Assembly: GCF_001593005.1 (NCBI RefSeq)
Contig: NZ_LQZQ01000045.1
Location: forward strand, 620,001 to 684,000
From: Roseivirga ehrenbergii
GTDB lineage: Bacteria > Bacteroidota > Bacteroidia > Cytophagales > Cyclobacteriaceae
Length of the DNA stretch: 64,000 nt
Direction of reading: 5' to 3'
Shown here: positions 18,880 to 48,336 of the stretch, piece after piece
Numbering within the stretch: the stretch's first letter is position 1
Layout: each line of letters begins with the position of its first letter
Notes under the pieces: generated by a model
What the model saw: the letters and a program-made list of their open reading frames with translations, nothing else
Database searches by the model: none
What the model was told of the DNA's origin: nothing
Program-made: the position numbers and the translations under genes

Positions 18880-19737
18880 TCATTTAGAATATTTCATATT
18901 CATAGTCCATTTTGTATGCGCTCCTATATCATAAGGTTCATTTCTATCAACTTGACTAAAACCGAGATTATTAATTATTATTTCATCAGCCCACTTTATA
19001 TAGTCAGTGTCTCCTTTTTTCAATAATTCTATAAGTGCCATCTCTTGTTCATTAGAGGGTAGAAGATCATATACTTCATACTTTAGGATCTCTAGACACC
19101 CGAGTTTTTCAGACTTCTTAAGAGGAGTCTGAACATAACCAGCATATCTATAATTCACATGTGGGAACACTTTAAACTCTAGCACCTCATTTCTCACTAA
19201 CTCTTCACAGAATTCACGCCAATGAGAAATCTCTCTACCCTTACCTGAGTCGAACCAGTCTAAGAATTCTAGAGCTTTTGAGGCAGGCACCATTAATCTC
19301 AAATCATCTCGCTTCTCCCCATTTGTTGGTAATTTCTTATCCAGTTCAACATTGTATTTTTCTTGAAGCCTTGACATTTCTCCAGGCAATACTTTATATA
19401 CCCCCCCCACTGGCTGATAAAAATTCCACTTTGAATTTTTAACTAGCAAATATTTGTCACTAACTCTGATACGGTATATGTATGACATCGAAAAGCGTAT
19501 TAAACTTCTTCGATGCCATATTTTAGTAAGAAACCATAGTCTGAATCTTTTAATATTCTGAAGTAAACCATCTATAAACCAAGCTATTAAAGGAGCAAGA
19601 ATACTTATTGTTAAAGCCACGGAAACAGTTAACCAAAAGTTCGATTGAGCTTCATCTTCAAAGAAAGTTGCCATTGCCAAAAGATAGATTATGGCTATTA
19701 AAGCTATTATAACATATCTGTTAGATTTAGAACTCAT
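18880..19737 (-). CDS. CBASS effector: 2TM protein with degenerate Nudix-like domain
   Basis: 285 residues. Two membrane helices (about 8-25 and 35-57) are followed by a basic linker and a cytoplasmic domain from about residue 85. The strand YIYRIRVSDKYLLVKN and the QPVGGVYKVLPGE that follows resemble the SMODS-associated Nudix fold, but the catalytic box G-x5-E-x7-REUxEExGU is not kept, so it more likely binds a nucleotide than hydrolyses one. This fits a TM-Nudix effector (I recall Cap16), which would disrupt the inner membrane once the second messenger binds. It is the last gene of the operon and overlaps the ATPase stop by 4 bp. Confidence 0.8.
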   Translation of the reverse strand: MSSKSNRYVIIALIAIIYLLAMATFFEDEAQSNFWLTVSVALTISILAPLIAWFIDGLLQNIKRFRLWFLTKIWHRRSLIRFSMSYIYRIRVSDKYLLVKNSKWNFYQPVGGVYKVLPGEMSRLQEKYNVELDKKLPTNGEKRDDLRLMVPASKALEFLDWFDSGKGREISHWREFCEELVRNEVLEFKVFPHVNYRYAGYVQTPLKKSEKLGCLEILKYEVYDLLPSNEQEMALIELLKKGDTDYIKWADEIIINNLGFSQVDRNEPYDIGAHTKWTMNMKYSK

Positions 19738-20621
19738 TTTATAACTGGGCTAGGTTTAATATGATTTAAAGTTTCACGGACTATATCATAATTTAATGGT
19801 GAACTAGGGAATGCAGCAGCAATAGATTCTGGGAAAAGTCGCAATCTGAGGTCGGAAAAAGAGAAGCCAATACCCTCATTTTCATTAGGGCCAGTGAGTT
19901 CTACAATACTTTTTATTTCTTCCGTACTCAAATCTGCACCATCTAGGTCTTTTTCAATCAATTCTTTTCTTTCATCATCCGTTGGTCTTTCAAATTTCAC
20001 CACAATAGCAGCTCTTCTAATAATGGCTTCATCAAGAAAATGTAGTCGATTAGTTGACATAATGACAATGGCTCTTCCATTTAAGCTTCTTATCTCATCT
20101 ATTTTTTGAATAAGGGTATTAACACCCGCCTTTTCTTCTTGATGCATCTGATGAGTACTCCTTGTTGTGGCAATCGCGTCTGCCTCATCTATTAGTAAAA
20201 ATGCTAACCTCCTTTTACCTGCTTGAGTGATGAGTTCGGCAAAAGCATCGTTTACGAGGTTACCCATTTCACCATGTAATCCTTCACCTCTTACTCTTGT
20301 ACTTAACCTCAAGAAAAACCCTTGTTTGCCGAGCTCTCGGGTCATTCTATCTGCAAGCGCCTCGGCAGAGGCCGTCTTACCAGTACCAACATCTCCCTCA
20401 AATATTATTAATGGATACTTATCTACAAGATAATCAACGGCTGGAAGACTTCCCATGTGAAATTTTTGTCTCCACGACTCTAATCCCTCTTTGTCTAGAA
20501 GAAGCCTCAAATTATTATGGATACGGTTAAATTTTTGCTCGAAACCGACTAATGTTTCTGCTTTCTCTTTAATCTGAGAATTAGGTAACTCTAAGATGTT
20601 ATCAAATACTTTGTCAGACAT
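19734..20621 (-). CDS. cap6: CBASS TRIP13/Pch2-like AAA+ ATPase
   Basis: 295 residues, one AAA+ module. Walker A is GDVGTGKT (residues 76-83), Walker B is LLIDEADA (142-149), sensor 1 is in VIMSTNR (Asn191) and the Arg finger region is IRRAAIVVKF. With a HORMA gene next to it, this is the remodeller that opens closed HORMA proteins and so holds the system off until a phage peptide triggers it. Its start lies 1 bp after the HORMA stop, and its stop overlaps the effector start by 4 bp, so stoichiometry is probably set by coupling. Known family: Cap6 of type III CBASS. Confidence 0.9.
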   Translation of the reverse strand: MSDKVFDNILELPNSQIKEKAETLVGFEQKFNRIHNNLRLLLDKEGLESWRQKFHMGSLPAVDYLVDKYPLIIFEGDVGTGKTASAEALADRMTRELGKQGFFLRLSTRVRGEGLHGEMGNLVNDAFAELITQAGKRRLAFLLIDEADAIATTRSTHQMHQEEKAGVNTLIQKIDEIRSLNGRAIVIMSTNRLHFLDEAIIRRAAIVVKFERPTDDERKELIEKDLDGADLSTEEIKSIVELTGPNENEGIGFSFSDLRLRLFPESIAAAFPSSPLNYDIVRETLNHIKPSPVIK

Positions 20622-20622
20622 A

Positions 20623-21129
20623 TTAGTTAAAATTAGTTTTGCTTAGCTCATAGCCCTTGCTTCCGTAAGTCTGTGCAGAATCTGCTCTAAGATGACTGTA
20701 GCTAGTGTCAATTGATGAATTAGTCCAGTCAATTTTGAATCCATGGTCTATATATATTTGCTCTTTTTGTTCTTCAGTAAGTCTATGCCAACTACTGCTA
20801 TAAAACACTATTGCGTTGAGTCTTGTATCCGGTGTATCTGGCCAATAATTTTTCCCTGCACGATCACCTTTCATTGTTCTTCCATCCATGGCAACGTTAT
20901 ATCTCACCGCTTGAACCGCTTTATTATTTTTGTCTAACAATGTTATATCAACCTTATCAAGGTATTTCAGCTCTGCTAATTTCACGATATCATGACAGAT
21001 ATCCTCCACGTAGATTTGTGTCCACTTGTTAGTCTTTCTAGCAATCATTCTAACGTCAGCGACAAAATTTTCAAATGTTTTTCTAATGTCGACCACAGTA
21101 TAGGTCGCTGTATGTGTTCCGTAACTCAT
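20623..21129 (-). CDS. cap7: CBASS bacterial HORMA-domain protein
   Basis: 168 residues. The N-terminal TATYTVVDIRKTFENFVADV, the central LDKVDITLLDKNNKAV strand pair and the C-terminal part match, as far as I can judge, the bacterial HORMA domain family 1. In known systems this protein closes around a phage peptide and then switches on the CD-NTase. Only one HORMA gene is present, so the one-HORMA form of type III CBASS. No obvious closure-motif tail is fused to it. It overlaps the CD-NTase stop by 4 bp. The assignment rests partly on context with the CD-NTase and the TRIP13-like gene. Confidence 0.82.
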   Translation of the reverse strand: MSYGTHTATYTVVDIRKTFENFVADVRMIARKTNKWTQIYVEDICHDIVKLAELKYLDKVDITLLDKNNKAVQAVRYNVAMDGRTMKGDRAGKNYWPDTPDTRLNAIVFYSSSWHRLTEEQKEQIYIDHGFKIDWTNSSIDTSYSHLRADSAQTYGSKGYELSKTNFN

Positions 21130-22094
21130 TCTTCTGTAATGTTAAAATGTGGTCCAAAAATAGACTTCCACTCAGAAATAGCATCTCCCATAGTACCCCT
21201 CGCTTGCGCTAGAGTTAGAGTTTCATAGGCTTCTTCAGCCTCTTCTTGAATCTCGTTCCAATCAGACTCTGTTATCTTGTTGGTTGTACTGTTTTCGTTA
21301 TTTGTCGGATCTGCGATATAGACCGGAGTAGTATAGTAGGGTATAGTATTGATAGCCCCTATAAAATTGAGCTCCTTTAACTTCTCAGAACTAGCAAACT
21401 CAAAAAACCTAATCAAAGCCTCTTCAATATTTGTTTCAACTCCTTTTGTCAGGTCCAAGTGTGATACAATTAGCTCTACAGAAAAGGATTTCAAGACATC
21501 AAGTTCTTTGTAATTTCTCCACCATTTTACTGCTCTTACAACTGAAGTAAAACTGCTGTTGGCATTTTTCCTCTCTTTTGCAAACTCCAATTGCCCATCG
21601 ACACTAGTTATGTATTTGCCCTTACCACCACGTTCAGGTTGCCAAACATAGCCCTCTGGAGAACTCAATGGCACTACTGGTACAATATCAACCTCCAACC
21701 CAGTTCCAGAGAATTTAATCTTAATAGACTTGGTATTTCCAGATGCATCTACATCTCTATATATATCCTTTGATGGATAGATGCTTTCTAAGTAGTCTAC
21801 CACGAAGTCGTGCAATTTTTGTACGTCATTCTTCACAGTCTCATCACCCTTTATGAAAAATACGAGATCTATATCAATGGGAAAATCTCCTGTTGGTCGT
21901 AATATTGTGCCTTTCTTCCAAGAACCTGCTCGAAGAACTCTAGTTACTCTCAAGCCAGTGCTGTCATCATTCTTAATTTTGTCCTCCAGTTTAGAAACGA
22001 GGTTCTCTATCTGACCTTTATATTTCGGCATGTTGTCCCTCTTTAGTTTTATTCTGCCGATAAAATTCTGCAATTGAGTATTGGTGAGTTTCAT
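21126..22094 (-). CDS. CBASS CD-NTase (cGAS/DncV-like nucleotidyltransferase)
   Basis: 322 residues. The Pol-beta nucleotidyltransferase signature is intact: GSWKKGT (57-63), the metal Asp pair D74 and D76 in DFPIDIDLVFF, and the third Asp D136 in GLEVDIVPV. A helical C-terminal domain with VVRAVKWWRNY, SFSVELIVSH and IADPTNN follows, as in CD-NTases of clades C/D that pair with HORMA and TRIP13. It should make a cyclic di- or trinucleotide; the product is not predictable from sequence alone. It starts 2 bp after the DUF2188 stop and overlaps the HORMA start by 4 bp. Confidence 0.92.
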   Translation of the reverse strand: MKLTNTQLQNFIGRIKLKRDNMPKYKGQIENLVSKLEDKIKNDDSTGLRVTRVLRAGSWKKGTILRPTGDFPIDIDLVFFIKGDETVKNDVQKLHDFVVDYLESIYPSKDIYRDVDASGNTKSIKIKFSGTGLEVDIVPVVPLSSPEGYVWQPERGGKGKYITSVDGQLEFAKERKNANSSFTSVVRAVKWWRNYKELDVLKSFSVELIVSHLDLTKGVETNIEEALIRFFEFASSEKLKELNFIGAINTIPYYTTPVYIADPTNNENSTTNKITESDWNEIQEEAEEAYETLTLAQARGTMGDAISEWKSIFGPHFNITEE

Positions 22095-23081: not shown

Positions 23082-23141
23082 AGCAATCCGAATTTAAGTG
23101 TTTTATTTCTTCTCCTTTAGCAAATTTCAATGTCTTTCATC

Positions 23142-23203
23142 TTCCCTCCGAACAAACAGACGCTCACGGTTTCGCTTTTCAAGCTCAACCTCAGCGTGAC
23201 GGG
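23142..23203 (-). repeat. GIY-YIG-associated palindromic repeat, left arm (copy A)
   Basis: Contains CCGAACAAACAGACGCTCAC, then TTTCGCTTTTCAAG, then CCTCAGCGTGACGG. It matches the reverse complement of the arm on the other side of the nuclease gene and recurs near 37600, 37840, 38360 and 41365. Confidence 0.75.
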
Positions 23204-23255
23204 TAGTTTTACGGGCATTCTAAGTAAATCTTCTTCAATTTTGATAAATTCAATC

Positions 23256-23555
23256 ATGGCTTACGGAGGTTCAGTTTATATTTTGACCAATAAAAATAAA
23301 ACAACCCTATATACTGGTGTTACTTCCGATCTAGGCGCTAGACTTCGACAGCATCGAAATAAGGCCTTTCCAAATAGCTTTACAGCGCGGTATAATTTGA
23401 CAGTGCTTGTTTACATGGAGCATTTTTCTTCTATTGAGGAAGCCATTCAAAGGGAAAAGGCGATTAAAGCAAAAACTAGGGCCAATAAGGAAAAACTTAT
23501 CGATTCGGTTAACCCTAATTGGGATGACCTCGCAAACGAAGTATTGAATTGGTAG
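23256..23555 (+). CDS. Small GIY-YIG endonuclease, element copy 1
   Basis: The start is the ATG at 23256 (MAYGGSVYILTNKN): homology to the second copy stays protein-like only from here, and the upstream frame runs through the repeat. 99 residues, one GIY-YIG domain (UPF0213/YhbQ size): VYIL, LYTGVT, the Arg in LGARLRQH and the metal Glu in SSIEEAIQREKAIK. It should nick or cut DNA or branched DNA. It differs from the copy at 37946 at 8 of 99 positions. Both genes sit between inverted arms CCTCAGxGTGACGG and CCGTCxTTCTGAGG, so the gene is likely part of a small mobile unit. Confidence 0.88.
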   Translation: MAYGGSVYILTNKNKTTLYTGVTSDLGARLRQHRNKAFPNSFTARYNLTVLVYMEHFSSIEEAIQREKAIKAKTRANKEKLIDSVNPNWDDLANEVLNW

Positions 23556-37590: not shown

Positions 37591-37663
37591 TTCTTGGCAC
37601 TCACTCTTTGAACAGGCGGACTCTAGCGGTTTCGTTTTTGAAACTTCAACCTCAGAGTAACGG
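37591..37663 (-). repeat. GIY-YIG-associated repeat, single arm (copy C)
   Basis: Carries TTCTTGGCACTCACTCTTTG, GACTCTAGCGGTTTCG and CCTCAGAGTAACGG, the left-arm type, without its own nuclease gene. Confidence 0.7.
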
Positions 37664-37759: not shown

Positions 37760-37892
37760 CGTCATTCTGAGGGAGAGTATTTCACGATAGAGAAATACAC
37801 GACCGCGAGAATCTGTTGGTTCTTGGCACCCTCTCTCCAAACAAACAGACTCTCACGGTTTCGTTTTTCAAACTTCAACCTCAGAGTGACGG
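37760..37892. repeat. GIY-YIG-associated palindromic repeat, both arms (copy D)
   Basis: Starts CGTCATTCTGAGGGAGAG and ends CCTCAGAGTGACGG; the two arms pair as a long imperfect palindrome (GCGAGAATCTGTTGG against AACAGACTCTCACGG type sequence). It ends 53 bp before the second GIY-YIG start. Confidence 0.75.
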
Positions 37893-37945
37893 TAAATTTT
37901 AGTTCCTTTCTCAGCAAATCTTCTTCAATTTTGATAAATTCAATT

Positions 37946-38245
37946 ATGGCTTATGGTGGCTCAGTTTACATTTTGACGAATAAAAATAGAACTACCCTGT
38001 ATACTGGTGTTACTTCGGATTTAGGCGCCAGACTTAGACAACATCGTGATAAGGCTTTCCCAAAGAGCTTTACGGCTAAATATAATTTGACAGTGCTGGT
38101 TTACATGGAACACTTTTCCTCAATAGAGGAAGCCATTCAAATGGAAAAAGCGATTAAAGCAAAGACCAGAATTAATAAGGAAAAGCTCATCAATTCGGTC
38201 AACCCTAATTGGGAAGATTTAGCAAATGAAGTGCTGAATTGGTGA
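37946..38245 (+). CDS. Small GIY-YIG endonuclease, element copy 2
   Basis: Start at ATG 37946, at the same place as in copy 1. 99 residues, differing from copy 1 at 8 positions, all conservative or at surface-type sites; VYIL, LYTGVT, the Arg in LGARLRQH and Glu in SSIEEAIQMEKAIK are kept. The 30 bp in front of both start codons are nearly identical (ATCTTCTTCAATTTTGATAA), so the homology block is larger than the gene. Arms of type CCTCAGAGTGACGG before and CCGTCATTCTGAGG after flank it. Function as for copy 1. Confidence 0.88.
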   Translation: MAYGGSVYILTNKNRTTLYTGVTSDLGARLRQHRDKAFPKSFTAKYNLTVLVYMEHFSSIEEAIQMEKAIKAKTRINKEKLINSVNPNWEDLANEVLNW

Positions 38246-38261: not shown

Positions 38262-38396
38262 CCGTCATTCTGAGGGAATTCACTTGTGGATACACAATGT
38301 GAATGACCGCGAGAATCTGTCTGCTCTTTGCACTATCCCTCCGAACAAACAGACTCTAGCGGTTTCGTTTTTCAAGCTTCAACCTCAGAGTAACGG
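38262..38396. repeat. GIY-YIG-associated palindromic repeat (copy E)
   Basis: Starts CCGTCATTCTGAGGGAATTC and ends CCTCAGAGTAACGG, again two inverted arms joined by GAATCTGTCTGCTCTTTGCA. It begins 17 bp after the nuclease stop. Confidence 0.75.
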
Positions 38397-38489
38397 TAAA
38401 TTGTAGGACTCAGCGTTCTTTGCGGTGAAGAAACCAATTCTCTTATTATGCCACAAAGGCCAAAAGCTTTGTTAATTTAGGGCTTGCCA

Positions 38490-38963: not shown

Positions 38964-39052
38964 CACTTTCAATTCAACGACAATTTTTTCTAAGCTAATC
39001 ACTACGAAAACCTCATGTGGCTTTGGTGCTTTCTTATCTAATATCTAGGTAT

Positions 39053-39095
39053 AAAAAAAACACCACATTTAGCCATAAAACTAAATGCGGTGTTC
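39053..39095 (-). terminator. Terminator of the ferritin-like gene
   Basis: Minus-strand hairpin GAACACCGCATTTAG / CTAAATGTGGTGTT with eight T, 25 bp past the stop. Confidence 0.9.
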
Positions 39096-39120
39096 TAAAC
39101 AAATAAACTACTCTAGTATC

Positions 39121-39570
39121 TTAAGCTACTTTTTCCATCATTTTCAGTTTAACTACTGTTGCGTCAATACTGGCTTTGTGACCTCTTAGCATGTTAGTTA
39201 CACTTGGTGGAAGCGATAGATCACTTTCCAAAATGTCTTTATAGTCTTCACTAGCCGTTTCTTCTCCGCGAATACACTCCTGCAAAACTTTTTCTGCATT
39301 ATTAGAGGCAATTGAAGATTTCAAATCCATCCATGCTCTGTGTAAAGCTGCTTTAAAACTACTCTCAGTTACTGGCTCTCCACCTAAGGCCGTTATTTCA
39401 GAAGCCAATTCTCCGGCAAACCTAGTTCTTTCCATTACCTGGTTCTTAAAGAAGTTTTTCAATTGGGCATCAGTCATGTCATCAATAGCGTTTTCATACC
39501 CTTGAATCGCATCATATGAACGTCTTAAAACATCATTTAATTTGTCGACTAATTTTTCTGTATAATTCAT
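39121..39570 (-). CDS. PA2169-family four-helix bundle (DUF2383) protein
   Basis: 149 residues, all-helical, ferritin-like. It begins LVDKLNDVLRRSYDAIQGYE and has regular Glu/His positions (QVMERTRFAGELASEI, RGEETASEDYKDIL), as in the DUF2383/PA2169 group. These are general-stress proteins of unknown detailed function, often induced in stationary phase. It is a single-gene unit with a strong terminator. Confidence 0.88.
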   Translation of the reverse strand: MNYTEKLVDKLNDVLRRSYDAIQGYENAIDDMTDAQLKNFFKNQVMERTRFAGELASEITALGGEPVTESSFKAALHRAWMDLKSSIASNNAEKVLQECIRGEETASEDYKDILESDLSLPPSVTNMLRGHKASIDATVVKLKMMEKVA

Positions 39571-39936
39571 GTTTCTATATTTTAATTAAAAGTTATCTAG
39601 CCTTTTGAAAGAACTATGCCAGTTCTATAAAGACCTCTCAATTAAGCGTATATGCGATTTTGCTCAACATATTAATAAAAAACAGTAGAGTGAATTCCAC
39701 ACTAGTGGTGAAAGAAGCTACAGGTTAAAACTCCCACATCTTAGCTATCCAATATCAGTTGTAAACCCTCTAAATATTACCCTCTAAATCAGTCTGGTTG
39801 CAAAGGAGTGCGATGACTACCCTTTAAATAAAAAAGATCATAATTTGGGTAATAGCATGGGTACAGAAATAATATTGTAAAAAGTATTTTTATCTTCAAC
39901 ACACCTAATCAAACATTCCATTAAACATCGCCTATT
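39571..39936. other. 366-bp gap between the ferritin-like and PETase-like genes
   Basis: This divergent intergenic region must hold both promoters but no full TTTG-N19-TAnnTTTG was found. An imperfect palindrome centred on ACTAGT (about 39701-39716) and two copies of ACCCTCTAAAT near 39767-39790 are the only structure seen. Confidence 0.4.
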
Positions 39937-40797
39937 ATGAAAGTCCGAACCTTATTAGTATTGTTAATATGTGTGTTATCGTATTCTGTTTACGGACAAT
40001 GCGAATCTATAACAGCAAAAAGTGTTTCAACCTACACACCATTCTCCTTAGATTCACTGTATGAGGCTGATGGATTACGAAACGGTGATGATTATGATGG
40101 TGCCACTTTGTACTTTCCAACCAATAGCGAATCGAATTTAAAAAGTATCGTATTAGTACCTGGCTACAAGGCCACTCAAAGGTCTGTAAGCTTATGGGCA
40201 AGATACCTTGCCGAACGTGGTTATGTTACCATGACAATTGGCACAAACGCTCTAACCGACAGCCCCGCATTAAGGGCCAAAGCACTTGTAGATGGTATGG
40301 AAACCATTCGACAAGAGAATAATAGAACGGATTCGCCCTTATTCCAAAAACTAGATACTGAAAACATTGCTGTGGGTGGGTGGTCCATGGGTGGTGGTGG
40401 CGCACAATTAGCCGCAGCGCTCGATAAAAGAGTGAAAGCTGTGATTGCAATAACACCCTGGTTATACCCTAAAACACTTGCAGAAACGGATTTAAACCAT
40501 ACCGCACCTGTATTGATCTTAAGCGGACAAGTTGACCCTACAGCCCCTCCCGCCAGTCATTCGAATGTGCATTATGAATATACCCCTTCAAATACTAAAA
40601 AAATGCTTTTTGAAATTACCGAAGGAAATCATTCTACCCCGCTTTACCCAAACACAGGAAACGGAGATTTAGGTAATGTAGCCTACGCTTGGCTCGAACT
40701 GTTTGTACGCGGAAACGACTGTTATAGTCAATTACTAAGTACGAATGCACTTAATCAAAACTCAACCGCTTCAAAACAGCAAAGCAATCTAAATTGA
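39937..40797 (+). CDS. PETase-like polyester hydrolase/lipase (cutinase-type alpha/beta hydrolase)
   Basis: 286 residues with a signal peptide (MKVRTLLVLLICVLSYSVYG). The serine motif GWSMGGGG (148-155) is identical to that of the Ideonella PET hydrolase. Triad: S150, D200 in SGQVDPTAPP, H232 in TEGNHSTP. The aromatic clamp residues of PETase are also present: Tyr77 in VPGYKATQ, Met151 and Trp175 in ITPWLY. The extra disulfide of IsPETase is absent. It should hydrolyse ester bonds of polyesters, cutin-like polymers or lipids outside the cytoplasm. No T9SS C-terminal domain is seen. It overlaps the DUF1648 gene by 4 bp. Activity on PET itself is not shown by sequence. Confidence 0.88.
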   Translation: MKVRTLLVLLICVLSYSVYGQCESITAKSVSTYTPFSLDSLYEADGLRNGDDYDGATLYFPTNSESNLKSIVLVPGYKATQRSVSLWARYLAERGYVTMTIGTNALTDSPALRAKALVDGMETIRQENNRTDSPLFQKLDTENIAVGGWSMGGGGAQLAAALDKRVKAVIAITPWLYPKTLAETDLNHTAPVLILSGQVDPTAPPASHSNVHYEYTPSNTKKMLFEITEGNHSTPLYPNTGNGDLGNVAYAWLELFVRGNDCYSQLLSTNALNQNSTASKQQSNLN

Positions 40798-41327
40798 ATT
40801 CAAAAACGGATAAAAATAGTCGCCCGATATTAAAACTTAAATTATCGGGTATAGATGTTGTCATGGAGCTTTTTGGCTGGCTGATCTTGATTGGGCTTTG
40901 GGTTTTAGTATTCATTAATTTTCAGGGTTTACCTGAAACCATACCCATTCACTTTAATGCGGCTGGAAAAGCAGATGGTTTTGGAGACAAATGGAACATG
41001 TTAACATTACCAATCGTTGCTTCGGTATTATACATTGGCATGACGGTTTTGAACAAATACCCTCATGTTTTTAACTACCCTACTGAGGCATTAACAGAAG
41101 AAAATGCACTGAAAAACTACACAATGGCTACCCGTTTAATACGAATATTGAAATTAGTTTTAGTGATAATCTTTGGCCTGATTATATTTAGAACTATACA
41201 GAATATTAACGGAACGGCTGAAGGCTTAGGTCTTTGGTTCTTGCCTTTAACATTGGGGATGATCTTTATTCCAATAACATACTATATCATAAAATCCATA
41301 AAGCTGGGTAAAACGAAGGCTAAGTAA
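40794..41327 (+). CDS. DUF1648-family membrane protein
   Basis: 177 residues with four membrane segments. The DUF1648 signature IPIHFNAAGKADGFGDKWNM is in the first loop. The start is a TTG overlapping the hydrolase stop (TTGA); an internal ATG at codon 24 would cut off the charged N-terminus. Its closeness to the PETase-like gene suggests joint expression but gives no mechanism. DUF1648 proteins are membrane proteins of unknown role, some near SdpI-type immunity proteins. Confidence 0.8.
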   Translation: MNSKTDKNSRPILKLKLSGIDVVMELFGWLILIGLWVLVFINFQGLPETIPIHFNAAGKADGFGDKWNMLTLPIVASVLYIGMTVLNKYPHVFNYPTEALTEENALKNYTMATRLIRILKLVLVIIFGLIIFRTIQNINGTAEGLGLWFLPLTLGMIFIPITYYIIKSIKLGKTKAK

Positions 41328-41334
41328 GCAGCTA

Positions 41335-41395
41335 CCACTCCGAACAGACAGACTCTCGCGGTTTCGCTTTTCAAGATTCAAACTTAGAGTAACGA
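41335..41395 (-). repeat. GIY-YIG-associated repeat, single arm (copy F)
   Basis: CCGAACAGACAGACTCTCGC, TTTCGCTTTTCAAG and a degenerate AACTTAGAGTAACG; left-arm type, no nuclease gene attached. Confidence 0.65.
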
Positions 41396-41471
41396 TACAG
41401 TTATAAGGTATTGAACTTAGTTATTCACGCTCTGATTTTTAAAATCAGGCTTTTGCTCGTATTTTGAACCT

Positions 41472-47448: not shown

Positions 47449-48336
47449 ATGAAAAAGCTAACCAAAGAAGAAGTCAATCCGGAAATTTTTGATCTGTACG
47501 ATGATTATGCCCATAGTAAAATTGACCGAAGGGCTTTTATGGAAAGGCTCTCTATTTATGCAATTGGTGGAATAACCGTTGGTTCCCTCATGAGCTTTAT
47601 GATGCCTAATTATAAAGACACCATGCTAGTAGCCCCAGATGATGAAAGAATCAGTTCAGATTATATCAACTATGATTCGCCAAAAGGTGGAGGAACTATC
47701 AAAGGTTTGTTATCTAAACCCAACAATTCGAGCGGTAAACTACCGGGGATAGTTGTGGTGCATGAAAATCGTGGTTTAAACCCTTATATCGAAGATGTAG
47801 GACGCAGAGCTGCTGTAGATGGTTTTATCACTTTGGCTCCTGATGCACTCACTCCGCTGGGTGGCTACCCCGGCAATGACGATGAGGGAAGGACCATGCA
47901 AAGCAAGCGCGATAGAAACGAGATGCTAGAGGATTTCATTGCTGCTTATGAGTATTTACGCAATCACCCCGATTGTAATGGCAAAATAGGCGTTGTCGGT
48001 TTCTGTTTTGGTGGTTGGATCGCCAATATGATGGCAGTAAAAGTCCCTACTTTAGGCGCAGCAGTTCCTTTCTATGGTGGTCAGCCTTCGGCAGAAGATG
48101 CCGCCAAAGTTAAGGCCCCTTTAATGTTACAATATGCCGGTTTAGATACACGAGTGAATGCGGGCTGGCCTGCTTATGAGGAAGTACTAAAGGCCAATAA
48201 CGTAAAGTATGAGGTATTTATCTACCCAGAGGTAAATCATGGTTTCCATAACAACACTACTCCTCGTTATGATGAAGCAGCCGCGACTTTAGCCTGGTCA
48301 AGAACCATCAAGTTCTTTAAGGATAATTTGGTTTAA
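47449..48336 (+). CDS. Dienelactone hydrolase-family protein, exported or anchored
   Basis: 295 residues. An N-terminal [20 protein letters not shown] resembles a Tat-type signal or anchor. The DLH triad is present: Cys in [13 protein letters not shown], Asp in [10 protein letters not shown], His in EVNHGFHN, and the fold motif [14 protein letters not shown]. It hydrolyses a lactone or ester, probably in the periplasm. Neighbours give no pathway. A block of repeats follows. Confidence 0.9.

Follow-up and report, generated by a model that had tools for sequence, protein, structure and literature searches.

The best described relatives of the hydrolase analysed here are PET30 of Kaistella jeonii, a PET-active esterase of solved structure (7PZJ), and PET27, PET28 and PET29 of Aequorivita. 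PET activity has been reported for PET27, whose clamp is Phe-Met-Trp, and for PET30, whose clamp is Phe-Met-Tyr, whereas PET28 and PET29, with Phe-Met-Trp, are active on PCL and BHET but not on PET (PMC8767016). Mutation of the PET30 clamp to Tyr or Trp abolished its activity; all four enzymes are promiscuous on PCL, BHET and Impranil, with PET27 and PET30 described as promiscuous esterases, and PET30 carries a C262-C285 disulfide and a PorC tail (PMC8767016). More distant references are IsPETase of Ideonella sakaiensis and the type II enzymes BurPL and PE-H. Finally, PET93 and PET94, secreted dienelactone hydrolases of the Bacteroidota Maribacter and Arenibacter, have a Tyr-Met-Trp clamp and no PorC tail (PMC13188925).

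The window, a 64,000-nucleotide stretch of a Roseivirga ehrenbergii contig, contains a PETase-family gene with the following features:

39937-40797, + strand: PETase-family (PF12740) serine hydrolase gene, 286 aa, from the ORF with profile and structure matches
39937-39999, + strand: predicted Sec signal peptide, residues 1-20/21 (SVYG|QC), from sequence reading and a helix at residues 2-20 of the model
40000-40002, + strand: C22, retained N-terminal cysteine, conserved in Bacteroidota members
40165-40167, + strand: Y77, clamp residue (IsPETase Y87), by alignment
40384-40386, + strand: S150, catalytic nucleophile in GWSMGGGG, in 81/81 relatives
40387-40389, + strand: M151, oxyanion/clamp residue, in 81/81 relatives
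40459-40461, + strand: W175, clamp residue (IsPETase W185), Trp in 63/81 relatives
40465-40479, + strand: residues 177-181 (YPKTL), a five-residue insert after W175 absent in PET27/PET30-type and IsPETase-type enzymes
40534-40536, + strand: D200, catalytic acid, in 81/81 relatives
40630-40632, + strand: H232, catalytic base, in 81/81 relatives
40639-40644, + strand: P235-L236 following the catalytic His; about 71/81 relatives and IsPETase have Ala-Asn there
40720-40722, + strand: C262, retained cysteine; the neighbouring CYC is CYS in the Roseivirga hydrolase
40794-41327, + strand: four-helix membrane protein of family DUF1648 (PF07853); its gene shares 4 bp with that of the hydrolase
39121-39570, - strand: ferritin-like protein (DUF2383/TIGR02284), belonging to the locally inserted block that holds the hydrolase
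38964-41471, no strand: accessory block (DUF2383, hydrolase, DUF1648), missing at the R. echinicomitans syntenic site; edges approximate

The open reading frame begins with ATG and accommodates 286 codons' worth of protein at exactly 39937-40797 (+). An earlier note on this DNA described a PETase-like hydrolase with complete triad and aromatic clamp, which is right at the family level: the Pfam search gave 162 bits for PF12740 against a cut-off of 28 (E 2.3e-47), together with weak overlapping matches to the AXE1, DLH and Abhydrolase families, and S150, D200, H232, Y77, M151 and W175, read from codons, all lie at the positions given there. The score against the BHET hydrolase equivalog NF051441 was 127.9 bits, below its cut-off of 520. 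The N terminus is a predicted Sec signal peptide; a lipoprotein was ruled out, since Gln precedes C22 and there is hence no lipobox.

PET30 is the closest solved relative by sequence (E 2.8e-82), followed by IsPETase and other polyester hydrolases, so that the best alignment is not to a different hydrolase family. An AlphaFold model built from an alignment of 57 homologues reached a mean pLDDT of 90, while single-sequence prediction reached only 40. The model has a predicted alpha/beta hydrolase fold with a Ser-Asp-His triad, and structure comparison placed it on 7PZJ with Z 38.1 and 1.8 Å over 256 residues at 48% identity, and on IsPETase with Z of about 36; PET30 and IsPETase thus lead the matches by fold as they do by sequence. 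With PET30 and PET27-29 the protein shares fold, triad, the N-terminal Cys and the position of C262 at 46-50% identity; those enzymes differ by Phe in place of Y77, the T9SS/PorC tail, the C262-C285 disulfide, the lack of the five-residue insert and their placement in another clade (PMC8767016). With IsPETase and the type II enzymes, at about 30% identity, it shares Tyr-Met-Trp, the Trp before the nucleophile and the Ser after the catalytic His (W149 and S233, matching W159 and S238 of IsPETase) and the length of the extended loop, which aligns without gaps. It differs from them in P235-L236, in the insert after W175, in having no equivalents of the C203-C239 and C273-C289 disulfides, and in H208/H212, which stand where IsPETase has S214/I218. 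The small residues at these two positions of IsPETase leave the Trp of the clamp free, and H210S/F214I variant entries among the structure matches are in keeping with this. PET93 and PET94 differ from the Roseivirga protein in length (433-434 aa) and, by their description, are set apart on different scaffolds outside the PET27/PET30 subcluster (PMC13188925).

How much do the motif and the clamp predict? The triad and M151 are invariant in the 81 aligned family members (the window protein and 80 loci from a genome scan), Trp149 is present in 77 of the 81, and G152-G155 are invariant in the alignment of 57. Because GWSMGGGG and the triad are common to the whole family, they are no predictors of PET activity. 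Clamps vary, with Tyr-Met-Trp in 24 members, Phe-Met-Trp in 33 and Phe-Met-Tyr in 15; the Roseivirga clamp is Tyr-Met-Trp, as against the Phe-Met-(Trp/Tyr) of the PET27/PET30 bacteroidetal subcluster. Given that PET30 works with Phe-Met-Tyr and loses activity when changed towards Tyr or Trp, and that PET28 and PET29 are inactive on PET, the clamp is no evidence for PET hydrolysis either, and the weight that the earlier note had put on GWSMGGGG and the clamp was too high.

Bacteroidota polyester hydrolases had been supposed to be few, but relatives of the hydrolase are not: a single genome scan gave 102 matches, mostly in marine Flavobacteriales, and PET93/PET94 are already Bacteroidota enzymes with Tyr-Met-Trp (PMC13188925). 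In a maximum-likelihood tree the window protein and its orthologues from R. seohaensis (97% identity) and R. echinicomitans (82%) fall within a nine-member clade (support 100/100) whose other members come from Flavobacteriaceae, Polaribacter, Crocinitomicaceae and unplaced Bacteroidota MAGs. The Aequorivita and Kaistella sequences, home of PET27 and PET30, form a separate clade (99/93). The Roseivirga sequences are nested among Flavobacteriales-type sequences, and the branching order between family groups is poorly resolved. In all nine members the clamp Trp is followed by the insert and the catalytic His by Pro-Leu, and no member of the clade was found among the characterised Bacteroidota enzymes in the literature examined. 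The Roseivirga hydrolase is a real, well-formed PETase-family member from this branch. Its clade relatives from Polaribacter irgensii (L041) and Flavobacteriaceae UBA2540 (L036) share 57-63% identity, the insert, Pro-Leu and the lack of a T9SS tail; they differ in keeping the cysteines of the C-terminal disulfide and in having no DUF1648 neighbour. Elsewhere in the scan, one short Flavobacteriales contig (L107, 519-2575) carries two divergent PETase-family genes facing each other.

The cysteines of the hydrolase are C12 (within the signal peptide), C22 and C262 only, in agreement with the earlier remark that the PETase-specific extra disulfide is absent. Two further absences had gone unmentioned, those of the conserved C-terminal disulfide and of the T9SS tail. 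Nearly all Bacteroidota members align CYC at the C262 site and a later Cys; in the three Roseivirga proteins the motif reads CYS or CYL and the chain stops short of the later Cys, so that this disulfide cannot form. C22 and C262 could pair with each other. An HMM search for the T9SS tail (TIGR04183) found none on the hydrolase, which ends at residue 286, and no tail out of frame or as a downstream remnant was found in Roseivirga, P. irgensii or UBA2540. Elsewhere the same Roseivirga genome encodes 25 such tails. Within the nine-member clade L039 and L040 have the tail, L036 and L041 lack it and in L038 it lies behind an in-frame stop, a pattern from which it was probably lost more than once. 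With a Sec signal and no tail, in a genome where 25 other proteins carry one, the hydrolase is probably periplasmic; the missing tail speaks against an attack on solid plastic in the surroundings of the cell. On the other hand, a tail-less protein could still be exported from the cell in some other way, and as the tail is also missing from the relatives in P. irgensii and UBA2540, its loss may mean little.

The hydrolase gene is present in 3 of 19 sampled Roseivirga genomes; at comparable strength it turned up in no genome outside the genus in samples of 390 from the order and 395 from the phylum. The DUF1648 gene occurs jointly with it in the same three genomes, and the coupling pointed out earlier is real: the genes overlap by 4 bp in three species, as TTGA in two and as ATGA in R. 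echinicomitans, which supports a TTG start for the DUF1648 gene. R. echinicomitans has no accessory block at the syntenic site, where the flanking genes adjoin each other; there the hydrolase-DUF1648 pair is found on the same contig at a distance of about 206 kb. The chromosomal site of the pair differs between Roseivirga species. Both genes are under purifying selection (dN/dS about 0.08 for the hydrolase, 0.17-0.22 for DUF1648). Between the window and R. echinicomitans the hydrolase has a dS of 1.5, versus 0.2-0.6 for other genes, which could reflect separate acquisition or changed codon use. A dispersed repeat of about 60-80 bp has seven matches genome-wide, with window copies at 41326-41405, 38333-38398, 37835-37894, 37610-37662 and 23146-23201. 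The hydrolase block has one copy at its downstream edge, R. echinicomitans has a copy beside its DUF2383 gene, and two window copies overlap the 5′ ends of short GIY-YIG nuclease ORFs (23130-23555, 37823-38245). The repeat may mark a mobile element that helped to move the block.

We propose, with a probability of about 0.75, that the hydrolase was acquired by lateral transfer, is kept by purifying selection and acts in the periplasm as a serine esterase on soluble esters or oligomers, with likely promiscuous activity towards BHET or PCL. The analysis shows the family, the predicted fold, the triad, the clade, the purifying selection and the absence of the tail; periplasmic location, substrate class and direction of transfer we infer. 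In the model, which takes its catalysis from family membership, S150 would attack the ester carbonyl aided by H232 and D200, Y77 and M151 would hold the oxyanion, and W175 and Y77 would pack against the acyl part of the substrate. The gene was probably gained by a Roseivirga ancestor from marine Flavobacteriales. The protein would have lost the T9SS tail by which its relatives reach the cell surface, and for that reason its expected site of action is the periplasm, with short oligomers or soluble esters as substrates. Promiscuous cleavage of PCL, BHET and comparable model esters would be likely, and the enzyme may show weak activity on PET film in vitro. As a polymer, PET is both recent and man-made; it is unlikely to have kept the gene under selection, and the enzyme's target is more likely some natural ester or oligomer. 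An ecovio-enriched Roseivirga MAG is described in PMC10734441.

It is unlikely that the protein is a PET hydrolase proper, attacking solid PET, in a bacterium with a role in plastic breakdown. Such a reading could appeal to the family, the fold, the Tyr-Met-Trp clamp, the IsPETase-like W149/S233 and the PET activity of PET30 at 48% identity (PMC8767016), but the clamp does not predict activity (PMC8767016), neither the second nor the C-terminal disulfide is present, H208/H212 replace the S214/I218 pair and the T9SS tail is missing. A search for ring-hydroxylating oxygenases gave one match of unassigned substrate and no sign of a terephthalate pathway; the tannase (MHETase) search gave no matches, but its controls were equally silent. 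The enzyme may have PET activity; the gene is no evidence of a plastic-eating bacterium. Somewhat less doubtful, though still not favoured, is an envelope esterase, either lipase-like or acting on carbohydrate esters (acetyl or feruloyl), with polyester activity as a by-product: the weak AXE1, DLH and Abhydrolase matches and the promiscuity described for PET27/PET30 (PMC8767016) point that way, against a PF12740 score far above that of all other families and no carbohydrate-active genes identified among the surrounding ORFs read.

A comparably tentative standing belongs to the idea that hydrolase and DUF1648 protein function together, with the membrane protein as the enzyme's partner, sensor or protector. 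The conserved overlap, the joint presence in 3/19 genomes and the different chromosomal sites of the pair argue for it; against it, DUF1648 was found beside none of the other scanned hydrolase homologues, and its relatives occur without a PETase. The literature search on DUF1648 returned nothing relevant. Its nearest sampled relative outside Roseivirga (59%; L169, 2768-4383) follows a beta-lactamase-family serine hydrolase gene, not a PETase. Quite improbable is the bolder proposal that the nine-member clade is a functionally distinct PETase branch with a cleft remodelled by the insert and Pro-Leu, represented in Roseivirga by a periplasmic oligomer hydrolase with a dedicated DUF1648 partner; if it were true, such bacteria would finish polyester oligomers released by their neighbours.

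The Roseivirga protein joins an IsPETase-type clamp to a PET30-type scaffold lacking the T9SS tail and either known PETase disulfide, a combination that makes it a useful test of what clamp, tail and disulfides contribute. If it is periplasmic, the use of polyester oligomers would be separated from surface depolymerisation in marine Bacteroidota; if it is an ordinary esterase, it would show once more that a matching motif is not enough to call an enzyme a PETase.

The second alpha/beta hydrolase of the window (47449-48336), YqhI-like at its N terminus, is by its PF01738 match (E 7e-49) an ordinary dienelactone hydrolase. The window also holds, at 18880-22094, a likely type III CBASS anti-phage locus with oligonucleotide cyclase (PADLOC E 1e-99), HORMA (E 3e-59) and TRIP13 (E 5e-115) genes, in which a 285-aa membrane protein at 18880-19737 is a possible effector.
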